Source: Kushneria indalinina DSM 14324 (GTDB lineage: Bacteria > Pseudomonadota > Gammaproteobacteria > Pseudomonadales > Halomonadaceae). From it: a stretch of 64,000 nucleotides of DNA. The notes under the pieces were generated by a model. The model was not told the origin of the DNA, did not search any database, and saw only the letters and a list, made by a program, of their open reading frames with translations. Shown in pieces: positions 8,426 through 21,163 of the stretch (position 1 is its first letter; every line of letters begins with the position of its first letter). The translations under genes and the position numbers were made by a program. Location: positions 771,380 to 835,379 of the forward strand of contig NZ_QRDJ01000007.1 in NCBI RefSeq assembly GCF_003385845.1. The letters run 5' to 3'.

Positions 8426-9736
8426 TCAGAGCAGCAGCTGGGCGACCACCGCTGAGCCGAGATAGGTGCCGGTAAACACCAGCAGCGAGACCAGCACCAG
8501 CTTCCAGCCGGTACGGCGGAACATGCTGAACTCCTGCTGTGACAGGGCAAAACCGGCGTAGGCCAGCACAGGCGTGACGATGGCCAGGAAATTGACCTGT
8601 GAAAGCTGCTCCACCAGCCAGGCACTGCCGGGGAAAAACGGCAGGGTCATGAGGATGCTGACCAGCGAAATCCAGGCGATCGCCGGCAGGTAAAAGGGCA
8701 CGATTCGGGTAATCACCAGCCCGATCAGGCTCATGACATAGAGAATGATCATGCCGGGCAGGGCACCCCACAGCGTGCCCGAGCTGACCACGTTGGTGAT
8801 CCAGCCCACCGCGCACACGGCGGCCAGCATCGCGGCGGTATGGCCCAGCTGCTGCTCGGGGCGTGGCTCGGCTGCGGTATCAGCGACACTGGCGGTATCG
8901 GGTGCTTCAACATCCACGCCGGCCCCGGCCCCTTTTCTGACGCTCAGACGCTTGTAGAGCCACTCCGCGACCGGCAGGGCGATAAACAGTGACACATACA
9001 GCCCGGTGGCATAGGTCAAAAGGTTACTGGCGCCGGCAAAGGCCAGCAGTTCCTCGCGCATGGCGGGCACCGCTTCGGCAAGCGCGCCCGAACAGGCCGC
9101 CACCATGCTGCCACTGCCCACCCCGCAGGCCATCGCCAGCGCCCTCGGGTCAAACCAGCCCGCCGAGCCGAGAAAGCCCGCCATCAGCGCAAACCAGAGG
9201 GTGCCGAACATGGTGCCGACCACATAGACGCCCATCACGCCGATGCCCTCCGGCCCCTTGAGGCCGTAGCGGTCCGAGATGATCGCAATATTGGGCTCGC
9301 GCGCGATCGAATAGGTCGCCCCGATCGATTCGCGGCCCATTTTCAGCACCAGCACGGCAAAGGGCAGCGCGATCAGCATCGTCCCCAGATTGCCCAGCTC
9401 CTGAAGGATCAGGGCCGGCCCGGCGCTAATGATCTGATCGATCGACGGCCCGATGGTGGAGCCAAAGCGGGCGATAAACGGCATGATCGCAATCAGAATG
9501 ATCGGCGAGGCCGCCGTACTCAGGCGCGGCGGCACCAGCGGATGCACCCGTCTGGAAAGGTGCGGGTTGAGCGCAATCGCCAGCAAAAAGGCATAAAACA
9601 GGGGCAGCAGTAACAGTGTCCCGACGCCCAGCGGAATTTTGATGATGCCGATCCACTCCGCAATCAGCGAAAGGATGACGACCAGTACATGCAGACGTAG
9701 CAGATCGAGCGGTGACGCCCGGTTGGCAGCATTCAT
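8426..9736 (-). CDS. DUF3100-like multi-pass membrane protein, putative transporter
   Basis: 436-residue integral inner-membrane protein with about 10-12 hydrophobic segments in two halves, separated by a charged loop near residues 280-320 (KGAGAGVDVEAPD region). The first segment LHVLVVILSLIAEWIGIIKI followed by PLGVGTLLLLPLFYA matches my recollection of DUF3100 proteins; no member is well characterised. It starts the minus-strand operon with the HIBADH-like and ALDH genes, so uptake or efflux of their substrate is a reasonable inference. Start 9736 (MNAANRASPLDLL) was taken from the position of the first span; upstream GGGAAC is only a fair ribosome site, and an in-frame codon at 9835 would add 33 residues. 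Confidence 0.68.
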   Translation of the reverse strand: MNAANRASPLDLLRLHVLVVILSLIAEWIGIIKIPLGVGTLLLLPLFYAFLLAIALNPHLSRRVHPLVPPRLSTAASPIILIAIMPFIARFGSTIGPSIDQIISAGPALILQELGNLGTMLIALPFAVLVLKMGRESIGATYSIAREPNIAIISDRYGLKGPEGIGVMGVYVVGTMFGTLWFALMAGFLGSAGWFDPRALAMACGVGSGSMVAACSGALAEAVPAMREELLAFAGASNLLTYATGLYVSLFIALPVAEWLYKRLSVRKGAGAGVDVEAPDTASVADTAAEPRPEQQLGHTAAMLAAVCAVGWITNVVSSGTLWGALPGMIILYVMSLIGLVITRIVPFYLPAIAWISLVSILMTLPFFPGSAWLVEQLSQVNFLAIVTPVLAYAGFALSQQEFSMFRRTGWKLVLVSLLVFTGTYLGSAVVAQLLL

Positions 9737-10235
9737 GACAGTGTTCCCATCGTGTTGTTTGGCTAATGGCAGGTCATGACCGGCCGGCGCCTGTTGTATG
9801 GGGCTCGTGTGCGTCACGAGGCCTGTCAGTATCAACGACTCGGGGGGAATGGGAAAGCGCGGCGATATGTCGCTGTGTTGGCAGGTAGGCCTGGCCTTTG
9901 AAAATCAATTTTCTGGCGGGCCGGGTTGTCTTGCTGATCGGTTTGCTGGTGGTGACGCGATAATGGCTTGTCTGGCCCTGATTAAAAACAGGCTGGCAAT
10001 GTCATATTGGCTCGATATACAGACATTCATGGCGCTAGGGCAGTCTGCGTCTTCCGTCTGAAGGTGCCCAAAATCGTTTAGTATCTTGTCGAGTGCCTTA
10101 TCTCATGAGGCTCGATTCAAACAAGTAAACATCAACGTCGTACCAGCCTGAGACTGATAACCATAACTGCCGAATTGCGATGAACTGGCGCAGTGCGTGA
10201 GGTAATTTCATGATTATCCAGCCAAGAGGGTCTAA
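9737..10235. promoter_or_regulatory. 500-bp divergent intergenic region
   Basis: No gene is supported here. It separates the minus-strand DUF3100 operon from the plus-strand dehydratase and must hold both promoters. The half next to the dehydratase (about 10060-10200) is AT-richer than the flanks. A plus-strand frame at 9798-10061 has no ribosome site and no recognisable protein character. I find no convincing operator palindrome or riboswitch core. Confidence 0.5.
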
Positions 10236-11300: not shown

Positions 11301-14300
11301 TCAGGACACATCGCTTATCTTCTCCAGCCGTATCACCAGCTCGTGCGCCTGGCCATCCAGCGCGATGCGCGCCTCGCCGGTGTCTTCAAGCCTTTTCCCA
11401 TCAAGCGTAATACCCGCCGTCTCGCCGGCCTCAACCCGCTCAACGCGAATCGTCACGCGGCTGCCTTCCAGCTCGACGGTGGCTGAATAGCCCGGCCAAT
11501 GGTCGGGAATGGCGGGGGCGACGATCAGCTCGTGCCCTTCGCGGCGAATACCGAGAATGCCGTTCACGCCGGCCTGATAGAACCAGCCGGCGGAGCCGGT
11601 GTACCAGGTCCAGCCGCCGTGGCCCGTATGCGGCGGTTCGGAGTAGACATCCGCGGCGATCACGTAGGGCTCGACGCGGTAGCGCTCGACCGCCTCATCG
11701 GTCAGCGCGTGGTTGATCGGGTTGATCAGCGAGAACAGCCGATGCGCCCGGTCGGCCTGACCCAGCCGGGCAAAGGCGAGAATCGACCAGGTGGCGGCGT
11801 GGGTATACTGCCCGCCGTTTTCACGCAGCCCCGGCGGGTAGCCCTTGATATAGCCGGGCTCCTGAGCGCTTTTGTTAAACGGCGGGGTGAACAGCAGTGC
11901 CAGGCCGTTGTCCTCATCGATCAGATGCTCCGAGACCGAGGCCATCGCCTGCTCGGCCCGCGTCGGGTCGGCACCGCCGGAGAGCACCGCCCAGGACTGG
12001 GCGATCGAGTCGATCCGGCACTCGAGGCTCTCTTTGGCGCCCATCCACTCGCCGTCATCAAAGGTGGCGCGGCGATACCAGGCGCCGTCCCAGGCATGAG
12101 TCTCCAGCGCGGTGCGAAGCGTCTCGCCGCGGTCACGCCAGCGGGCAGCACGCTCAGGGTCGCGAGGCGTAATGAGCGGGTCAAACAGGGCCAGCGTTCG
12201 CAGCAGCATCCAGCCCAGCCAGACGCTCTCGCCCTGGCCACCTTCGCCGACCCGGTTGAAGCCGTCGTTCCAGTCGCCGGTGCCGATCAGCGGCAGTCCG
12301 TGCTCGCCGAACTGCTCGAGCGCCTGCTCCAGTGCCCGCACACAGTGTTCAAACAATGGTGCGGTCTCGGCAGCCGTCGCCGGCTGGGAGAAGTCGTCAT
12401 GGGCGCCGGCCACCAGCGGCGGGGCTTCCAGAAAGCCGACCGATTCATCAAGCACGGCGGGGTCGCCCGCGCTTTGCACATAGCTTGCGGTAGCAAACGC
12501 CAGCCACACCCGGTCATCGGCGATGCGGGTGCGCACGCCCTGGCCGGAGTGTGGCAGCCACCAGTGCTGCACATCGCCTTCGATGAACTGACGCCCGGCG
12601 GCGCGCAGCAGGTGGTGACGCGCCAGTTCGGGCTGGGCAAAGGTGAGCGCCATGCCGTCCTGAAGCTGGTCGCGAAAGCCGTAGGCGCCACTGGCCTGAT
12701 AAAACGCCGAACGGGCCACCACGCGACAGGCCAGCGTCTGATAGGTCAGCCAGCCGTTGACCATCACATCCATCGCCCGGTCCGGCGTTTTGATCTGAAG
12801 CGCGCCGTGTAGCATGCGCCAGTAGTCTTCAACAGCCGTCAGCTCGGCGGCCAGATCCGCCTGGCGGTAGCGCGCAATCAGTGTGCGCGCGGTATCCGCA
12901 TCACCGGCCAGACCCAGCAGGGCGGCCAGGGTGACGGTCTCGCCGGGTTCCAGTGTCAGTGTGCACTGCAGCACCGTGCAGGGATCCATCCCGGCGCCGG
13001 CCCGGCCACTGAGTTGCTGGCGCCCGGAGAGCGCCTCGGGCTCTGCCAGCGTCCCGGCGCCGAGGAACTCGCCGCGATCGGCGGTGAAGGCACGCTGTCG
13101 CGCGTCCAGATCAACAAAGCCGATCCGGTCGGGGAAGGCCATGTTCCACGGGTTGCGCATGAAAAGTGCCCCGGTCTCGGCGTCGTGCTCGGAGATCAGA
13201 AAGGGCGCGTTTTTGGCGCGGGCGTTGCCCATCACCCAGCTGGCGTAATAAGTGAGCATCAGCCGTCGAGGGGTCGCGGTGCGATTGGTCAGGGTGAGCT
13301 GCGAGATTTTGACCGGGTCTTCCAGCGGCACGAACTGCACCAGCGTCATCGCAAGTGCCTGGGTGTCGTGCTCAAAGCGGCTGACGCCGAAGCCGTGGCG
13401 GGCCACAAAGCGCGAGTGCTCGCGGCCGGGGCGATACGGCGCGGCGGTGACGGTGTCGATGGCGCCGCTGTCGGCGTCCTGGATATAGATCACCTCGCCG
13501 GAGGGGTCGCTGACCGCATCGTTGGACCAGGGCGTGAGCTGGTTGTCGCGGCTGTTGTCCGCCCAGACGTAGCTGCTGCCCTCGGCCGAGACCTGAAAGC
13601 CAAAGCCCGGGTTGGCGATGACGTTGATCCAGGGCTGCGGCGTGGTGGCGCCGTCATCAAGGACGCAGACGTACTCGCGCCCCTCGCTGGCAAAACCGCC
13701 GGTGCCGTTGAAAAACTCGAGCGTCTCTTTATCAAGCCTGTCGAGGCTCTCCCGTTCGGGATGAGTCGGGGCGCGCTCGACCGGGGCGTATTCGCTCGGT
13801 GTGGCATCCACCGGTGTGGCATCCGTCGGCGCCTGCTCGATGACCAGCGGCTCGTCGCCTGCCAGCAGCGTGGCGAGCTGGCGATGCAGCGGCCCCTTGT
13901 GGGCGCGCAGCACCACGCGGGCCACGGCCAGCACCAGATCCCGCGCAGACGGGCTCAGCTGATGTCCGCGAAGAGAGATGACATTGCCCAGCGCCGGGTC
14001 GTGGCCGTCGTGCGGCGGCGAGCAGTGGGTGCGCACGGCGGTGTCGATGGCGTCCTGAAGCTCCTGGAGATAGGAGTGGGAACGCTCGTTGAGAATCACC
14101 AGATCAACCCCGAGGCCCTTGGCCATCCAGTATTCGCGGGCGCGCAGCAGGGTCTCCACCCAGCCGATCTCCTCGGTGTCGGCCAGATGCAGTACCACGA
14201 TCGGCAGATCGCCCGAGATGCCCATCGACCAGAGATCGGACTGTTTCGAGAGCCCGCGCAGAAGCGTCGGCTCCGGAGCGCGAAAGCGCGCGTCGTGATA

Positions 14301-17300
14301 GAGAATCGGCGCGGCCAGGCGCTGGAAGTCGGCGGCCTCGTCTAGGGCGATGCCCAGATGGCGCAGCTGCACCTGCGCCTGCGTCCAGGCCATCGTTCTG
14401 GCGCGCTCAAACGCGCCGGCGTCGTGGTGGCGGTCGATCAGCGCGACCAGACTGTCGCGGCTGTCGGCGGCCACGGTCCAGAAGTCGACGTGGGCGACGT
14501 GCCCCGGCGCGATGGAGACCACATGGCGCAGGGAGAAGATCGGGTCGAGCACCGCCCCGGTGCGCCCGTCATGCATCGGCTCGGCGCCGTCAAACGGTGC
14601 GTCACACAGGGCGGCCGCCGTGGACAGCGTGCGGCCACGGCCCAGGAATCGGGCGCGATCCGTCTCGAAGCGAAACCGTCGCGGCGTGGGTGGGGCGTCA
14701 TCGCCGGCCTGTCCGGCCTCGTGTGGCGTCTCGCGGCTGGTGTCGTCGATCCGGATAAAGTGCCCCACCCAGATCGGCGCCTCGTTGGGGTCGCGGTGGC
14801 GGCGGGTGGCCGTCAGCGCCTGATACTCGGGGAGGGTATCGGTCTCGACGAACATTTTGGCAAACGCCGGATGGGCGTCGTCAGTGGCCGGCGTGGTCAG
14901 TACCAGCTCGGCCCAGGAGGTCAGCTCGATGGTGGCCTCGTGCTCGCCGTTGTTGGTGACGCTCACCCGTCTGATCTCGGCGTTGTCCTCACCGGAAACC
15001 CGCACCTCGAGCGTGGTGGTAAACGCCGCGTCATGCCGCACGAAGCGGGCGTGATCCTCGGCGAACTCGACCTCATGCGTGGCGCTATCAAGCTCGCCGT
15101 TATCATTGGCAATCGTGCGGGGGCCGCCGGCGAACCAGCGCCGTCCGGTCTCGCGGTCACGAAGGGCAATGAAGCTGCCCCAGTCATCCGTGGTCGGGTC
15201 CTCGCGCCAGCGCGTGATCGCCAGTTTCCCCCAGCGGCTGAAGCCGGCCCCGGCGTCGGTAAGCATCACCGTGTAGCGGCCGTTGGAGAGCAGATGCGTC
15301 ACCGGCGGGGCGGACGGCCTGCCGGTCAGACGGCGCACCGCGGCCTCGATCGGCGGCTCATCGACGGTGATGACCGGGTCGGTGTCGTTGGGGGAGGGCA
15401 GCGTGGCGACTTCCCGCGGCAGGCGCTCGTGGAGCAGCAGCTCGCTGGCCTGAATCATCGGCTCGGCGTGGAAGTGGGTGCGAAGCCGTCCGCCCAGCAG
15501 GGCATTGGCGATGGCGACCACGGTCATGCCCTGGTGGTGGGCCATGACGTTGCGCACTACCACAAAGCGCCGATCCATCGGCAGGCGGGTGGGGGTGAAG
15601 TCGATGGCATCGAAAAAGCCGTAGCGACCCTCGGCGCCCAGTTCGCGCAGGCGCGCGAAATTATCGATCGCCGCACGCGGGGCGACCATCGCCGCCAGCG
15701 CCGTGGCGTAGGGGGCGAGCACGAAGCTCTCGGCCAGCCCGCGCTTGAGCCCGAGCGAGGGCACGCCGAAGTTGGAATACTGATAGTTGGCCTCAAGATC
15801 GCGCGCGTTGTAGGCCGACTCCGAAATGCCCCAGGGCTCGCCGCGCTGTCTGGCGTAGTCCCGCTGGCACGCCACCACCAGCCGGTTGGTCTGCTCCAGC
15901 AGGCTGTCGCGCGGGGCGCGCATCACCAGTGACGGCATCAGGTACTCAAACATCGAGCCCGACCACGACATCAGCACCACGCCGTCGGGCTGCGGGCTGA
16001 CCGCACGCCCCAGCCGGAACCAGTGACGGGTCGGCAGATCGCCCTTGGCGATGCCGATCAGGCTTGCCAGTCGCGCCTCCGAGGCCAGCAGGTCGTAGCA
16101 GCCCTCATCAAGGCGATCCTCGCGCGGGGCGTAGCCGATCGACATCAGCTTGCGCTCGGCGACCAGCAAAAAGGCAAAGTCCATCTCGTGGGTCAGGGTG
16201 CGGGCGCGCCGGGCCAGCTCGCGCAGGCGCGTTTCCAGACGCAGCGCGGTCTCGATGTCGGCCTCGTGTTCAGCAAGGCAGCGTTCCAGACAGGGCAGCC
16301 AGTACGCCGGGGTCGCGCGTCGGGTCAGGTCATCGACGTCGTTGCCTTCCGGTGCCTCGGGCTCGAGCGCCACGCCCGGGTCATCGTCCTGTGTCGGAAT
16401 GTCTGTCGAGGCGGCGGCCGGGGCATGAGGCGCCGGGGCGCTCTGGCTTGCCAGCAGCACACGCCAGCTTGCCAGCGAGCAGCGAACGTCAGCGGTGCTG
16501 TCGCGCCGGGTCGATTCGCCCTCAAGGCGCGCGATCAGGGCCTCGAGCTCGGCAAGCAGTCGGGTTTTTGTCGCCCCGGGCAGCGTCCGGTCAAGCTCGG
16601 TGTCTTCGTAAAAAAGATGCAGCGTATCGATCAAACCGTCACGCGGGTGGGCGACACAAGGCTCGTCGATCCACGCCTCGCAGGCGTTGGCCATCGCGAT
16701 CAGGTGGCCGGCAAGGTTGCCGCTGTCCACCGCCGAGACGTAACGCGGCTCCAGCGGAACAAGCGTTGCGGTGTCGTACCAGTTGTAGAGATGGCCCCGG
16801 CAGCGCTCGAGCGAATCCAGCGTGTCAAAGGTCGCCTCCAGCCGCTCGACGGCACCGCGAGTTCCGATCCAGGCGAAATCCCGCGCCGCCACGCAGGCGA
16901 GCAGGTAGAGCCCGATATTGGTGGGTGAGGTGCGCTCGGCGATGACCGGCTCGGGGTCGAGCTGAAAGTTGTCGGGCGGCAGCGCGTTCGAGGCGGGTGT
17001 GACAAAGGTTTCAAAAAACTGCCAGGTGCGGCGGGCGATGTGGCGCAGCGTGCGCGACTGAGCCGCGTCGAGTCTGAGATTATCGGTGGTGTCCCCGGGG
17101 GCACGGCTGGTCCACAGTGCCACCAGCGGAGCGGCCAGCCAGGCCGCCAGCAGCGGCAGCAATAGCGGCCAGCCGGGCGTCTCGAACAGCGCCAGAACCA
17201 GCACCACGCCGAAGGCCAGCAGCATGCCGCCGGCCATCGCGCGGGCAAACCCCGCAACGCCCGGGTGGCGGTCCCGGATGAGGGCGGCGGCAGTGGTCCA

Positions 17301-20066
17301 CTCGAGCAAATGTCGCCGGGAGACGTAGACGCGATAGAGCGTGCGCGCGATGGCATCCATCATCTGCCAGGCCTGATTGGCCAGCAGGACCACCGTCAAC
17401 AGACAGCGCCCGGTTTCCAGCGCCAGATCGCGGGCAATCGTGCGCCGGTGATGGCGCCAGTCGCCATCGTAGTGGCGGGGCTTGAGTGCAAAGGTGATCG
17501 GCAACAGCGCCGGGATGACCAGCGCGGCCAAGGTCAGCAATAGAGCGACCAGGGCGACCGGCGCCTGAAACGCCGCACAGACCGCGAAGGCGGCAAACAG
17601 GCTCGGCGCCAGCAGCGAGCGGCGCAGATTGTCGACGATCTTCCAGCAGCCTACCGCGCCGAGCGCGCGCCGGTCGGCGCCCCTGCCCACCACCCAGGGC
17701 AGCAGCTGCCAGTCGCCGCGCACCCAGCGATGCTGGCGGCGGGCGGCCACGTCGTAGCGTTCCGGCTCCGCCTCGACCACCTCGACATCCGAGGCCAGGC
17801 CGGCGCGGGCGAAGATCCCCTCGAGCAGGTCATGGCTGAGCAGGCTGTTGTCCGGAATACGCCCGGCAAGCGCCGTTTCAAACGCGTCCACAGCGTAGAT
17901 GCCCTTGCCCGCGAAAGACCCCTCTCCGAAGAGATCCTGATAGAGATCCGACACCGCAGCACTGTAGACGTCGAGACCGCCAGGGGCGGAGAACAGGCGC
18001 TGATAGCGCGACCCCTGCCGGCCGATGGGCAGTGACGGGGTGACGCGCGGCTGCAGGATGGCGTGGCCGTGGGTCACACGGCCGGTGTTATCGAGCACCG
18101 GCTGGCTGAGCGGATGCGCCATCTTGCCGACCAGTCGGGCGATGGTGTCCCGCGGCAGACGGGTGTCGCTGTCGAGCGTGACCACATAACGGACCCCTGC
18201 CGGAACCCAGGGGGCCCGGCCCCCCACGGCCGCGAAGGAGGTATCGGTGGCACCGCGCAGCAACCGGCTGAGCTCGGCAAGCTTGCCGCGCTTGCGCTCC
18301 CAGCCCATGAATTTGCCTTCGCCCGGATTGTACTGACGCCACCGGTAGAGCAGCACGAAGCGCGGCCCGTCCGGCCCGGGCCCGTGACGGCGATTGAGCG
18401 CGGCCACGGCGTCCCCCGCCAGTTGCAGGCGGCGAGCATCTTCAGGCGTCTCGGCGCTGTCGGCATCGAGCCCGTCAAGCAGCAGCGTAAAGGTCAGCGC
18501 CCCGCCGTTGCCGGAGAGATAGTGCACCTCCAGACGCTCGACCAGCTCGGCAATCTCGTCGTCACTGCCGAGCATGGCGGGGATCACCACCATTGTTCTG
18601 AGCGAGGCAGGTACGCCGTGCTCCAGCGCCAGCCCCGGCAGCGCCTCCCCACCCACCCCCATGCCCAGCATGCGATTCACCAGTGACATGGCGATATCGT
18701 TGGCGGGCAGCACCATCAGTGCCAGCCACACCCAGGCCCAGCCCGAGACCAGCCCGGCCGACATGAGCCCCCACCACGCCAGCAGCAGGATCGCCGCGGT
18801 GAGCAGCCAGCAGGCCCCGGCGTAGCCGGCAAGGCCCATTCCAAGCACCAGCCGGCGAAGCCGCAGAGGCGGCGGGGCGCGAAAGCCCAGCGCGCGCTCA
18901 AGCTCGGGTCGACCGTCATCGATCAGGTAGTAACCGGGGTCGGCGCGGCGGATCGCCCGGGTATCGAGCGTGTCGGACGCAGGGGGCGTCCCGGCGGCCT
19001 CCAGGGCGCGGCGGGCGACCGTGATTTCGTCGCAGCCGGCCCCGCGGGCGAGCTGTTCGATGGCGTTGCGGTAGCGGTCACGGGTGGCGAAATCCATCTC
19101 GCCGAAACGGCTGTGATCGCGCAGGCAGCGATCCACCAGGCTTGTCTGCTCCACCAGGGCGGCCCAGTCAAAGTCGGCAATGTGGCGCAGGCTGGTGATG
19201 GCGTTGCGCACGCTGATGTTGGACGCCCCCTGACGGTGATGGGCGCGCTGGATGACGGTGGCGGTGGTGGTCTCCAGCCGCGTCATCTGCTGTTCCAGCC
19301 AGTAGAGCGCCGGGGAGCGTCCCGGGTCCTGATCGCGCAGGCGCTTGGCCAGCTGGGCGTAAAAGTGCTCGGTAAAATTGCCCAGCGCGTGCAGGTCGAC
19401 CTCGGTCAGCGCCCGGCTGCTGTCGATGTCGGGGCTGAGTATCCGCTCGCACAGCGCGTCGGCGGCGTTGCGGGCATCGCGCGCGCCCACGATCTGCTCG
19501 GCCAGACGACGGATGTTTTCCACCAGTACCAGCCGCAGCGAGATCGCCACTGCCCACAGTTCCCCCAGGGTCAGCACTTCAACGCGCTGATAGGCCTCGA
19601 GAAAGCGAATCAATGTCGGGGCATCGAAGCGGCTGTCGGTGTGGGCGATGTAGGCCCAGGTCAGCCCGAAGACCCGCGGATAGCCGGCAAACGGGCCGTC
19701 GGCAAGTTTGGGCAGCTGGCGGTAGTAGCCCGGCGGCAGGTCGCGGCGAATGTCGCTGACGTGCTTTTCGACGTGGTTATAGTGATCCAGCAGCCACTCG
19801 GCGGCGGGTACGGTGTCGCGGCGATGGGCGGCGTCGACGCTCAGACGATGATGGGTCGCGCCCAGCGCGGTGATGTTGTCGGCAAGGCGCTGATAGAGCG
19901 GCACCGCTGCTGGCGGGCGCGCGGTAATCGGCTGCGCCGCCGCCAGACTCTCGGCGTGCTGCTCGAGCCGCTCCGGCCCGAACAGCTCCTCGCGTACCGG
20001 CTCCAGGCTGTCCCAGGGCGGATCGGACGGCGCGCGCTGGCGTGTGAACCGCTGCCAGAGGTTCAT
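11301..20066 (-). CDS. ndvB: Cyclic beta-1,2-glucan synthase (NdvB/ChvB/Cgs type), 2921 residues
   Basis: Inner-membrane giant that initiates, elongates, cyclises and trims periplasmic cyclic beta-1,2-glucan from UDP-glucose, as in Brucella Cgs and Agrobacterium ChvB (about 2830-2870 residues), so this copy is full length. Order of parts: N-terminal helical cytosolic region (1-400); membrane spans about 402-470; GT84 glycosyltransferase core about 520-810 with TLDSDTRLPRDT near 630; more spans about 815-862 and 942-985; glycoamylase-like domain around 1420 (YNARDLEANYQYSNFGVPSL); and C-terminal GH94 phosphorylase modules with GDWNDGFNRVGEGGQGES near 2600, the catalytic Asp region that controls glucan length. 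I put the start at MNLWQRF (20066) because the upstream ORF ends there as ATGA; M at 20120 would add 18 residues. Transcribed alone; the leader suggests post-transcriptional control. Confidence 0.95.
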   Translation of the reverse strand: MNLWQRFTRQRAPSDPPWDSLEPVREELFGPERLEQHAESLAAAQPITARPPAAVPLYQRLADNITALGATHHRLSVDAAHRRDTVPAAEWLLDHYNHVEKHVSDIRRDLPPGYYRQLPKLADGPFAGYPRVFGLTWAYIAHTDSRFDAPTLIRFLEAYQRVEVLTLGELWAVAISLRLVLVENIRRLAEQIVGARDARNAADALCERILSPDIDSSRALTEVDLHALGNFTEHFYAQLAKRLRDQDPGRSPALYWLEQQMTRLETTTATVIQRAHHRQGASNISVRNAITSLRHIADFDWAALVEQTSLVDRCLRDHSRFGEMDFATRDRYRNAIEQLARGAGCDEITVARRALEAAGTPPASDTLDTRAIRRADPGYYLIDDGRPELERALGFRAPPPLRLRRLVLGMGLAGYAGACWLLTAAILLLAWWGLMSAGLVSGWAWVWLALMVLPANDIAMSLVNRMLGMGVGGEALPGLALEHGVPASLRTMVVIPAMLGSDDEIAELVERLEVHYLSGNGGALTFTLLLDGLDADSAETPEDARRLQLAGDAVAALNRRHGPGPDGPRFVLLYRWRQYNPGEGKFMGWERKRGKLAELSRLLRGATDTSFAAVGGRAPWVPAGVRYVVTLDSDTRLPRDTIARLVGKMAHPLSQPVLDNTGRVTHGHAILQPRVTPSLPIGRQGSRYQRLFSAPGGLDVYSAAVSDLYQDLFGEGSFAGKGIYAVDAFETALAGRIPDNSLLSHDLLEGIFARAGLASDVEVVEAEPERYDVAARRQHRWVRGDWQLLPWVVGRGADRRALGAVGCWKIVDNLRRSLLAPSLFAAFAVCAAFQAPVALVALLLTLAALVIPALLPITFALKPRHYDGDWRHHRRTIARDLALETGRCLLTVVLLANQAWQMMDAIARTLYRVYVSRRHLLEWTTAAALIRDRHPGVAGFARAMAGGMLLAFGVVLVLALFETPGWPLLLPLLAAWLAAPLVALWTSRAPGDTTDNLRLDAAQSRTLRHIARRTWQFFETFVTPASNALPPDNFQLDPEPVIAERTSPTNIGLYLLACVAARDFAWIGTRGAVERLEATFDTLDSLERCRGHLYNWYDTATLVPLEPRYVSAVDSGNLAGHLIAMANACEAWIDEPCVAHPRDGLIDTLHLFYEDTELDRTLPGATKTRLLAELEALIARLEGESTRRDSTADVRCSLASWRVLLASQSAPAPHAPAAASTDIPTQDDDPGVALEPEAPEGNDVDDLTRRATPAYWLPCLERCLAEHEADIETALRLETRLRELARRARTLTHEMDFAFLLVAERKLMSIGYAPREDRLDEGCYDLLASEARLASLIGIAKGDLPTRHWFRLGRAVSPQPDGVVLMSWSGSMFEYLMPSLVMRAPRDSLLEQTNRLVVACQRDYARQRGEPWGISESAYNARDLEANYQYSNFGVPSLGLKRGLAESFVLAPYATALAAMVAPRAAIDNFARLRELGAEGRYGFFDAIDFTPTRLPMDRRFVVVRNVMAHHQGMTVVAIANALLGGRLRTHFHAEPMIQASELLLHERLPREVATLPSPNDTDPVITVDEPPIEAAVRRLTGRPSAPPVTHLLSNGRYTVMLTDAGAGFSRWGKLAITRWREDPTTDDWGSFIALRDRETGRRWFAGGPRTIANDNGELDSATHEVEFAEDHARFVRHDAAFTTTLEVRVSGEDNAEIRRVSVTNNGEHEATIELTSWAELVLTTPATDDAHPAFAKMFVETDTLPEYQALTATRRHRDPNEAPIWVGHFIRIDDTSRETPHEAGQAGDDAPPTPRRFRFETDRARFLGRGRTLSTAAALCDAPFDGAEPMHDGRTGAVLDPIFSLRHVVSIAPGHVAHVDFWTVAADSRDSLVALIDRHHDAGAFERARTMAWTQAQVQLRHLGIALDEAADFQRLAAPILYHDARFRAPEPTLLRGLSKQSDLWSMGISGDLPIVVLHLADTEEIGWVETLLRAREYWMAKGLGVDLVILNERSHSYLQELQDAIDTAVRTHCSPPHDGHDPALGNVISLRGHQLSPSARDLVLAVARVVLRAHKGPLHRQLATLLAGDEPLVIEQAPTDATPVDATPSEYAPVERAPTHPERESLDRLDKETLEFFNGTGGFASEGREYVCVLDDGATTPQPWINVIANPGFGFQVSAEGSSYVWADNSRDNQLTPWSNDAVSDPSGEVIYIQDADSGAIDTVTAAPYRPGREHSRFVARHGFGVSRFEHDTQALAMTLVQFVPLEDPVKISQLTLTNRTATPRRLMLTYYASWVMGNARAKNAPFLISEHDAETGALFMRNPWNMAFPDRIGFVDLDARQRAFTADRGEFLGAGTLAEPEALSGRQQLSGRAGAGMDPCTVLQCTLTLEPGETVTLAALLGLAGDADTARTLIARYRQADLAAELTAVEDYWRMLHGALQIKTPDRAMDVMVNGWLTYQTLACRVVARSAFYQASGAYGFRDQLQDGMALTFAQPELARHHLLRAAGRQFIEGDVQHWWLPHSGQGVRTRIADDRVWLAFATASYVQSAGDPAVLDESVGFLEAPPLVAGAHDDFSQPATAAETAPLFEHCVRALEQALEQFGEHGLPLIGTGDWNDGFNRVGEGGQGESVWLGWMLLRTLALFDPLITPRDPERAARWRDRGETLRTALETHAWDGAWYRRATFDDGEWMGAKESLECRIDSIAQSWAVLSGGADPTRAEQAMASVSEHLIDEDNGLALLFTPPFNKSAQEPGYIKGYPPGLRENGGQYTHAATWSILAFARLGQADRAHRLFSLINPINHALTDEAVERYRVEPYVIAADVYSEPPHTGHGGWTWYTGSAGWFYQAGVNGILGIRREGHELIVAPAIPDHWPGYSATVELEGSRVTIRVERVEAGETAGITLDGKRLEDTGEARIALDGQAHELVIRLEKISDVS

Positions 20067-20128
20067 TGAGCCACCGACAGGGGGCAACACGAGCGGTGAG
20101 CACAGGGGACAGGAAAACATCGATCCAT
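20063..20128 (-). CDS. 21-codon upstream ORF overlapping the ndvB start
   Basis: Minus-strand ATG at 20128 follows AAGGAG (20141-20136) with 7-nt spacing, the only good ribosome site upstream of ndvB. It encodes MDRCFPVPCAHRSCC... and stops with a TGA at 20065-20063 that overlaps the ndvB ATG (20066-20064) as ATGA. ndvB itself has no good ribosome site at that ATG, so ndvB translation is probably coupled to this short ORF. The peptide has four Cys in 21 residues and no family resemblance. It could instead be a chance reading frame if ndvB starts at 20120 with a poorly spaced site. Confidence 0.5.
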   Translation of the reverse strand: MDRCFPVPCAHRSCCPLSVAQ

Positions 20129-20139
20129 CGTCGTTCTCC

Positions 20140-20159
20140 TTCTCGTCACTAGACGAGAA
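20140..20159 (-). promoter_or_regulatory. Perfect palindrome/hairpin touching the upstream-ORF ribosome site
   Basis: TTCTCGTC and GACGAGAA form an 8-bp perfect stem around a 4-nt centre. On the minus-strand transcript its 3' arm ends at the first A pair of the AAGGAG ribosome site, so it can act as an RNA hairpin adjusting access, or as a DNA operator. Confidence 0.5.
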
Positions 20160-20224
20160 TACGGCCGGCACGGACGCGGGTTGCGCGCTGCGTGCTCGGC
20201 CAGAGCCTCACCACGCCGTCACCG

Positions 20225-20257
20225 GCCGGCCGCACTGTCGAGAACAGTGCAGCCGGC
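20225..20257 (-). promoter_or_regulatory. Strong hairpin in the ndvB leader region
   Basis: GCCGGC-GCACTGT pairs with ACAGTGC-GCCGGC (13 pairs, one mismatch, 5-nt loop). There is no T tract on either side, so it is not a plain terminator. Its place about 100 nt upstream of the short ORF suggests a structured 5' leader or an operator. Confidence 0.45.
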
Positions 20258-20413
20258 AAGCGGCATGGTGAACGAGGTGAGAGGCGTCGCGTCAGGGAAA
20301 GCGCGTGGGCCGAAAAAAGAAGCGGCGGGGAGAGACACGCGCCTGACGCGAATCCGGACAGGTCGTCCTGTGCAGTATGGTTCGCGCCGGTGCGGTTGGC
20401 GAGGCGCGTTATC

Positions 20414-21163
20414 TTATATTCGCCAGCGAAGTGGGTGGTCGTTTTTCAAAACACCGGCCTCGTTCCAATCCGCCCAGCCGCTCATGGGAATGGGTCGTTC
20501 TTCGCTCAGCGTTTGAACGCGCGTTGCCCAGCGCATTTTCTCCTTCTCGAGATGGGCACGAAATCCCGCTTCCTGTTGATAGCTCAACCCGCCGCCCTGA
20601 ACGCCGTACGTCAGCTGAGGCACCAGCACCGATAGTCCGACGTAGTAGAGCGAGCAGTGCAGCGGCCACATGAGGGTGGCGATATCGCCGCTGCGACCCA
20701 ACGGGCCGAAAGTCGCTTCTGGTGCACCGGTGGTCACCGAGCAGAGCGCGCGCCGGCCGCTGAGCGGGCCGCGATCGAATCGGCGGCTGCCAGTGTAGAG
20801 ACCGCCATACACGAAGACGCGATCAAACCAGCCCTTGAGCATCGCCGGTACCCCGTGCCACCACAGTGGAAACTGAAAGATCACCGTCTGCGCCCATTTC
20901 AGACGCGCGATTTCTCGGCTGACATCGGCTGCGAGGGCATCGCCCTCGTAGTGCCAGCGCTGCTCGTCCAGCGCCTGAAAATATGACGGTTCGCGGCGGG
21001 TGGCGTAGCGACCGGGGCCTTCGACGGGCTCAAATTCCTCGGCGTAGAGATCACTGACAAGAACTTCATGACCAGCGTGTTCCAGCGTCTCTATCGCGGT
21101 ATCTGTCAGCGCGGCGTTAAAGGATTTTGGTTCGGGATGGCAGTGAACAATCAGAACTTTCAT
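20414..21163 (-). CDS. NAD(P)H-dependent quinone reductase, flavodoxin-like fold (MdaB/KefF/NQO1 type)
   Basis: 249-residue FAD/FMN flavoprotein reducing quinones by two electrons. The N-terminal phosphate loop VLIVHCHPEPKSFNAAL and the central FQFPLWWHGVPAMLKGWFDRV motif (about residues 96-116) are typical of the NQO1-like Flavodoxin_2 family; VFVYGGLYTG and the SVTTGAP loop follow. It is divergent from a LysR gene, the second such quinone-reductase/LysR pair in the window. The ribosome site before 21163 is weak. Which quinone or electrophile it handles is unknown. Confidence 0.9.
   Translation of the reverse strand: MKVLIVHCHPEPKSFNAALTDTAIETLEHAGHEVLVSDLYAEEFEPVEGPGRYATRREPSYFQALDEQRWHYEGDALAADVSREIARLKWAQTVIFQFPLWWHGVPAMLKGWFDRVFVYGGLYTGSRRFDRGPLSGRRALCSVTTGAPEATFGPLGRSGDIATLMWPLHCSLYYVGLSVLVPQLTYGVQGGGLSYQQEAGFRAHLEKEKMRWATRVQTLSEERPIPMSGWADWNEAGVLKNDHPLRWRI

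Follow-up and report, generated by a model that had tools for sequence, protein, structure and literature searches.

Organization of the ndvB locus

We analyzed the region upstream of ndvB, a gene of the cyclic-glucan-synthase type in Kushneria indalinina DSM 14324 (Halomonadaceae), within a 64-kb stretch of contig NZ_QRDJ01000007.1. This whole stretch is referred to as the window, and all coordinates are positions in it. The leader, a short upstream open reading frame (uORF) and ndvB all lie on the minus strand (Table 1). As judged by Pfam, the ndvB product combines a glycoamylase-like domain with a GH94 supersandwich and a GH94 catalytic domain, which we take to be the domain composition of cyclic glucan synthases. 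The stop codon of the uORF (TGA, 20065-20063) overlaps the start codon of ndvB (ATG, 20066-20064) in the tetranucleotide ATGA. The Shine-Dalgarno (SD) sequence AAGGAG (20141-20136) ends 7 nt ahead of the uORF ATG (20128) and is the sole strong SD ahead of ndvB in the window, where no SD of at least 4 nt was found for the ndvB ATG itself. The locus thereby shows both properties by which we recognize a coupled uORF: a stop/start overlap, and a uORF with its own SD ahead of a main gene that has no strong one. An exact 8-bp palindrome, TTCTCGTC (20159-20152) and GACGAGAA (20147-20140) around a 4-nt loop, runs into the SD. The original prediction for this DNA had named AAGGAG as the only good ribosome site upstream of ndvB, serving a 21-codon ORF with an ATGA overlap, and had placed the palindrome so that it ends at that site; both descriptions are exact in the window.

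Table 1. Features of the ndvB locus in the window (leader types and alignments are described in the text).
Feature	Position	Strand	Remarks
ndvB, cyclic-glucan-synthase-type gene	11301..20066	(-)	2921 aa; Pfam PF10091, PF06165 and PF17167 above cut-off
uORF, 21 codons	20063..20128	(-)	MDRCFPVPCAHRSCCPLSVAQ, then stop; ATG at 20128; stop overlaps ndvB start
SD of uORF, AAGGAG	20136..20141	(-)	read from the sequence
Hairpin B	20111..20140	(-)	predicted; SD side AGGAGAAC pairs with uORF codons 4-6, GTTTTCCT; uORF ATG in or at loop AUGGAU
Hairpin A, palindrome core	20141..20158	(-)	adjoins hairpin B; 96.7% of cells paired in the five type-A leaders, one pair with changes on both sides
Long stem-loop H2	20207..20272	(-)	encloses 13-pair hairpin 20257-20225
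Long stem-loop H1	20272..20366	(-)	-35.9 kcal/mol, z -3.9; helix 1 of alignment A1, four pairs with changes on both sides, 81.4% of cells paired
Promoter-like pair	20374..20402	(-)	putative; TCGCCA (20402-20397), 17 nt, CATACT (20379-20374)

Conservation of the uORF

A query with the N-terminal part of ndvB showed the gene to be patchily distributed: three of the 10 genus genomes and 64 of the 275 family genomes gave a match. Of these 64 loci, 63 were analyzed (G245 was omitted). The 11 best-matching loci, three of the window's genus and eight of genus g20, form the close set. All of them have a short ORF, 20-29 codons long and preceded by an SD of its own, whose stop overlaps the start codon of ndvB as NTGA (ATGA in eight, GTGA in two, TTGA in one), and in nine of them ndvB is without an SD of at least 4 nt of its own. 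The distance from uORF start to ndvB start is 59, 62, 74 or 86 nt, all of which keep the frame, and premature stops are absent from all 11. Openness alone is weak evidence, since a shuffled uORF interior stays open with a probability of 0.37-0.88 per locus; retention of frame and overlap through at least three length changes is unlikely to be an accident. Conservation of the ORF and the overlap, on which the original prediction was to be judged, thus holds for the 11 nearest orthologues and is not supported for the family at large, where 11 of the 52 other loci pass a relaxed coupled-uORF test and 41 do not.

The encoded peptides align poorly past their first residues and their C-terminal halves are unalignable; sequence, length and Cys content all drift. 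Among differing uORF codons the synonymous share is 3/11 for G188/G181, 3/6 for G188/G175 and 3/6 for G178/G180, with no clear excess. As the peptides align so poorly and synonymous changes are not clearly in excess, the uORF appears to be retained mainly as a reading frame, and not for a specific peptide. This bears on the possibility of a peptide-sensing leader, for instance one in which ribosomes stall at Cys codons under cysteine limitation. Four of the 21 uORF codons in the window encode Cys, and Cys4 is shared by eight of the 11 peptides; Cys9 is shared by three and the other Cys residues are not shared. The richness in Cys to which the original prediction drew attention is not a feature of the group, however, as the peptides contain 0-4 Cys and eight of 11 have one or none. 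Together with the divergent C-terminal halves and the failure to find an intrinsic terminator on the leader strand, this makes peptide sensing extremely improbable. A cysteine attenuation leader in the strict sense was rejected, there being no conserved run of Cys codons.

Predicted occlusion of the SD by uORF codons

Beyond what the original prediction contained, we found a predicted hairpin in which the uORF's own codons would sequester its SD (hairpin B, Table 1). It is common to five leaders of the close set, designated type A (the window, G007, G004, G179 and G173), all of which pair AGGAGAAC with GTTTTCCT and present AUGGAN at the loop. In the window, the stretch 20143-20110 folds with -12.2 kcal/mol, matched by 1 of 200 shuffles; against 1000 shuffles of each of the five leaders, 6, 43, 2, 14 and 15 were as good. 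Across the five, 98.2% of cells are paired and 10 of 11 pairs are invariant. With up to three mismatches allowed, the hairpin B pattern has a single occurrence in each of five genomes among the 275 of the family, always in a type-A ndvB leader.

The stem codons TGT TTT CCT are invariant in all five leaders, even though only 10 of the 172 prolines of ndvB are encoded by CCT (TTT, at 48/97, is not rare), while the loop codons vary (GAT/GAC/GAA and CGA/CGG). This pattern points to RNA pairing, rather than the peptide, as the constraint on uORF codons 4-6. Consistent with this, the window's uORF SD has a predicted unpaired probability of 0.01, compared with a median of 0.41 and no lower value among 29 control starts; these were chosen mechanically (44 ORFs, 29 of them with an SD), none is ndvB, and some are surely not true starts. 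With 60 nt of context on either side, predicted accessibility is at most 0.04 in four of the five type-A leaders and 0.22 in G007. No comparable structure was found at the start of ndvB: the stretch 20128-20040 folds no better than its shuffles (z -0.08), and a hairpin that shuts the ndvB start directly was rejected for this reason.

Structure and covariation of the leader

The 381-nt stretch 20420-20040 folds with a z-score of -7.7 and none of 100 shuffles is as good, so that folding of the leader exceeds chance. The 13-pair hairpin of the original prediction is present, with 14-nt arms (20257-20244 and 20238-20225) that are 93% complementary around a 5-nt loop. It is not a separate element, being the mere tip of stem-loop H2 (about 20272-20207); the stretch 20275-20205 has a fold energy of -51.4 kcal/mol (z -7.1). 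In alignment A1, H2 corresponds to helices 4 and 5, with 3 + 3 pairs changed on both sides and 88.3% and 75.6% of cells paired.

The alignment of type-A leaders contains 11 pairs with changes on both sides, a number reached by none of 500 shuffles and by no slid control (at most 5); the count covers 68 of the 73 alignment pairs, and a long-range helix between columns 55-59 and 404-408 is left out. Such compensatory changes, which the original prediction had suggested seeking in the leader hairpins, support the type-A structure as a whole. An alternative is that the palindromes serve as DNA sites for a binding protein and do not act through RNA folding. The window's 8-bp palindrome is free of mismatches, as an operator might be, but across the type-A leaders the arm spacing of the equivalent hairpin ranges between 4 and some 40 nt, which is hard to fit to a dimer operator, and we regard this alternative as very unlikely.

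Transcription may start at the putative promoter listed in Table 1. All aligned close leaders but one (10 of 11, the exception being G180) contain CATACT, and the alignment weakens upstream of the promoter-like region; on account of the TCGCCA/CATACT pair and this conservation, a leader of about 240 nt ahead of the uORF is plausible. A consensus promoter scan of 19900-20700 returned no site. The gene upstream of the leader, which is flavodoxin-like and ends at 20414, is found in the flank of only one of 10 relatives (flanks of about 0.7-1.5 kb); the leader, conserved although that gene is so seldom seen, looks like a unit belonging to ndvB. A second copy of the leader was not found elsewhere in the genome (next best match, E 0.67). 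Rfam gave no match at gathering score in the window and seven sub-threshold matches in 20000-20450, the best of them to a microRNA model (E 0.026). A weak match to the Guanidine-II riboswitch (15.2 bits versus 32) was dropped, since its hairpin is lost in relatives, as judged by eye. Near ndvB, a DUF3100 protein is encoded at 8426-9835 on the minus strand.

Type-B leaders and other Halomonadaceae

The six remaining leaders of the close set, all from g20, share a different hairpin and are designated type B. Here an upstream GCATGG.GTT..CC element forms pairs with the stretch that runs from the SD up to the uORF start; paired cells make up 98.6%, versus 25-49% when the pairing is slid. Predicted accessibility of the SD is 0.14-0.51. 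Exact copies of the type-B ribosome-binding site (RBS) sequence are present in seven of the 275 genomes, namely the six type-B genomes and G172, and ten more have matches only at three mismatches. The locus in G172 (L117, G172:C12, from about 1027) has a type-B leader with a uORF start, behind which lies a decayed remnant of ndvB: most of the gene is gone, the frame is shifted and part of the GH94 region is left.

Outside the close set, 43 of the 52 loci were aligned (nine were skipped by hand) and 36 matched a stricter motif pattern. In 35 of these leaders (L060-L103, alignment A3; G214 was excluded by hand for a long insertion) a CTGGT/ACCAG helix would pair the SD of ndvB itself, and it contains 19 cells with changes on both sides, versus 6.5 on average in shuffles (none of 500 as high). 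These results are suggestive of a recurrent occlusion of the loading site ahead of ndvB by unrelated sequences.

Two further observations were made in these genomes. Nine g23 genomes have a GTG/TTG mini-ORF that ends in GWNL and a stop and overlaps ndvB as NTGA. A block resembling TGTGCGCTAGCGAACCGAC lies about 105-140 nt before ndvB in other Halomonadaceae (for example, L068 near 1396), with CATNNT following some 17-18 nt after it; among 14 genomes searched, of which two are Kushneria-type, 10 contain an exact copy of the block, a single one per genome and always at ndvB; it is perhaps a dedicated promoter or operator.

A relay model for ndvB translation

Based on these observations, we propose with moderate confidence that the ndvB leader works as a translational relay: folding of the RNA would gate initiation at the uORF, and ribosomes would be passed on by termination-reinitiation. 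In this model: (i) ribosomes would load at the uORF SD and translate 20-29 codons; (ii) termination would take place at the NTGA overlap, followed by reinitiation at the ndvB start; and (iii) the loading site would be closed by structure, in type A (the window and four relatives) through locking of the uORF SD by codons 4-6 of the same ORF in hairpin B, downstream of hairpin A and the two large stem-loops, and in type B (six relatives) through a different conserved hairpin that would enclose both SD and start codon. The role of the uORF would be to carry ribosomes and not to supply a particular peptide. Because the loading site would be held in RNA structure, default ndvB output is expected to be low, and a factor that opens or locks the hairpin would set the amount of enzyme. 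Changes in TGTTTTCCT would then be expected to alter ndvB output. The ORF, the overlap, the conservation of both, the predicted occlusion of the SD and the type-A covariation can all be read from the sequences.

Several results weigh against this model. The close set comprises only 11 related, non-independent genomes, two of which (G004 and G186) carry an SD of their own for ndvB, and the pairs G188/G175 and G178/G180, with half of their differing codons synonymous, hint at some constraint on the peptide. Hairpin B has no compensatory pair in the five type-A leaders, for which reason its proof is incomplete; a change in the SD of G007 weakens it, and the SD of G179 is predicted to be open (0.85) with 30 nt of context on either side (0.04 with 60 nt). 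For the type-A alignment as a whole, extra pair types are not above shuffles (180 of 500), and the RNAalifold covariation term is unfavorable (+3.92) because some pairs are broken. In type B, the two covarying pairs of the hairpin (counted on one hairpin, 23 of 91 alignment pairs) are reached by 125 of 500 shuffles, the hairpins do not exceed shuffles in stability (87-287 of 500 fold as well), and SD accessibility is ordinary in two of six leaders. For the CTGGT/ACCAG helix, extra pair types fall below shuffles (500 of 500 as high), RNAalifold attributes hardly any folding energy to the region, and the 5' arm may in part be promoter sequence. Finally, coupled uORFs have a background. The 11 other family loci that pass the relaxed test mostly do so with weak GTG/TTG mini-ORFs, and in a second set of 35 loci nine of the 32 tested pass (L036, L037 and L043, in which the match starts inside the gene, were left out); one of these loci, L009 (Kushneria phyllosphaerae), is the same genome as G007. 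With a background of 20-25%, single cases can be chance, and the case for the uORF therefore rests on its conservation in 11 of 11 close loci.

The same background counts in favor of a rival view, in which the uORF is accidental and ndvB starts independently, whether at position 20066 or at the in-frame position 20120 (MFSCPLC). Nothing closes the ndvB frame downstream of 20120 in the window, nor in three type-B relatives, where an ATG at this position makes such a start possible. Of the 10 relatives, however, seven have this frame closed or lack the ATG: in-frame stops close it in all four type-A relatives (G007, G179, G173 and G004), and ACG replaces ATG in three of the six type-B leaders. 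Initiation of ndvB at 20120, one of the outcomes that the original prediction gave as a refutation, is contradicted by the stops in the type-A relatives, and we rejected an N-terminal extension of ndvB from that position. Given also the conservation throughout the close set, an accidental uORF is quite unlikely.

A bolder version of the relay is one in which the gate operates itself. The early uORF codons would serve as an anti-SD that an initiating ribosome melts, keeping the gate open for the next and making output switch-like, with CsrA on the AUGGAN loop as the lock, and different lineages of the Halomonadaceae would each have arrived anew at an occluded SD ahead of ndvB, by way of hairpins unrelated to one another (type A, type B and, elsewhere, the CTGGT/ACCAG helix). 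We consider this version speculative and rather unlikely to hold in full; if true, its lineage-wise re-invention of SD occlusion would imply strong selection for translational gating of ndvB.

Candidate signals for the proposed gate

Actual coupling, occlusion of the SD in the cell and a signal acting on the gate are steps that we infer, and of the signals CsrA is the best named candidate. As a special case of the relay, CsrA/RsmA would bind the AUGGAN loop of hairpin B, lock the SD and repress the uORF and, by coupling, ndvB. All five type-A leaders have AUGGAN at the loop, with ANGGA at the SD too, and a CsrA gene above the Pfam cut-off is present in each of seven genomes searched. The combination of an ANGGA hairpin loop with a paired SD was seen at none of 29 starts in the window and at 1 of 197 starts at other loci, which included related loci and unrelated bacteria. 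An ANGGAX hexaloop on a stem is described as a high-affinity form for RsmE (in the part of PMC4005645 on which we draw), and the iraD and RsmA systems discussed below offer precedents (PMC5574718 and PMC7652899).

Other features fit CsrA less well. ATGGA results whenever the second codon begins with GA. The loop is a hexaloop in three of five type-A leaders and may close to a tetraloop in the other two (G000 and G007), its closing pair is G-C as against the C-G of RsmZ stem-loops, and ANGGA is absent from the RBS region of all six type-B leaders. No match to CsrB or RsmZ over threshold was found in three genomes; four sub-threshold RsmZ matches that were inspected end in ordinary terminators and contain 0-2 GGA each. 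We therefore treat a CsrA/RsmA gate as possible but doubtful.

A second candidate is a direct physical switch of the RNA, in which salt or K+, osmolarity or temperature would change how far the hairpin is open, no protein being needed. In its favor, osmoregulation of periplasmic glucans occurs in other bacteria, and the hairpin predicted to close the SD has an energy of some -8 to -12 kcal/mol. Hairpin B is, however, predicted to stay closed from 15 to 50 °C, against a simple thermometer: over this range the isolated hairpin has an unpaired probability of 0.05-0.06 in four type-A leaders and a constant 0.25-0.27 in G007. An RNA thermometer is thus disfavored, as the modeled hairpin remains closed up to 50 °C, and physical switching in general seems to us unlikely. 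For the osmotic or growth signal of the original prediction, the sequence offers neither support nor grounds for dismissal.

Comparison with known systems

A coupled uORF with gated initiation is a known kind of arrangement; the new points here are which gene is concerned and that codons of the uORF are predicted to act as an anti-SD for the uORF itself. In an open-access part of the literature (titles and the beginnings of abstracts), we found no paper on translational control of cyclic glucan synthases. A leader hairpin stabilized by RsmA has been described ahead of a polysaccharide gene, which is presumably psl of P. aeruginosa. As far as the part of the article on which we draw goes, this hairpin blocks ribosomes (PMC7652899, citing Irie et al. 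2010) and resembles the ndvB leader in being a ribosome-blocking hairpin ahead of such a gene; that part describes no uORF relay and reports protein binding, for which the ndvB leader has only a candidate site.

The comparisons that follow likewise draw on parts of the articles cited. In E. coli iraD, a coupled short-ORF relay was demonstrated by experiment (Park et al. 2017, PMC5574718), the short ORF being ORF27, or idlP (the latter name from PMC7652899). As with ndvB, the iraD leader carries a short ORF whose stop overlaps the main start, and control at the uORF initiation region reaches the main gene by coupling. The two differ in that CsrA binding and coupling were demonstrated for iraD, where the SD that becomes occluded belongs to iraD and not to the short ORF (PMC5574718), whereas the ndvB uORF is predicted to close its own SD with its own codons, ahead of a glucan synthase gene, and has CsrA as a candidate regulator only.

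The uPPE2-ppe2 relay of M. tuberculosis, also shown by experiment (Kipkorir et al. 2024, PMC11260477), shares with ndvB an AUGA overlap, a main gene without an SD and control of the uORF by leader RNA structure, with passage mainly by termination-reinitiation; its gate is a B12 riboswitch (PMC11260477), unlike the ndvB leader, which reaches the threshold of no Rfam family. Termination-reinitiation has been described for overlapping gene pairs generally (Huber et al. 2019, PMC6728339). Those pairs have in common with ndvB the ATGA overlap of co-directed ORFs, while the ndvB case would be that of a gated short leader ORF.

If the relay works as proposed, it would give these bacteria a way to hold back the costly translation of an enzyme of nearly 3000 residues, and nine bases within a 21-codon ORF would offer a concrete site at which osmotic, growth-phase or CsrA signals could act.

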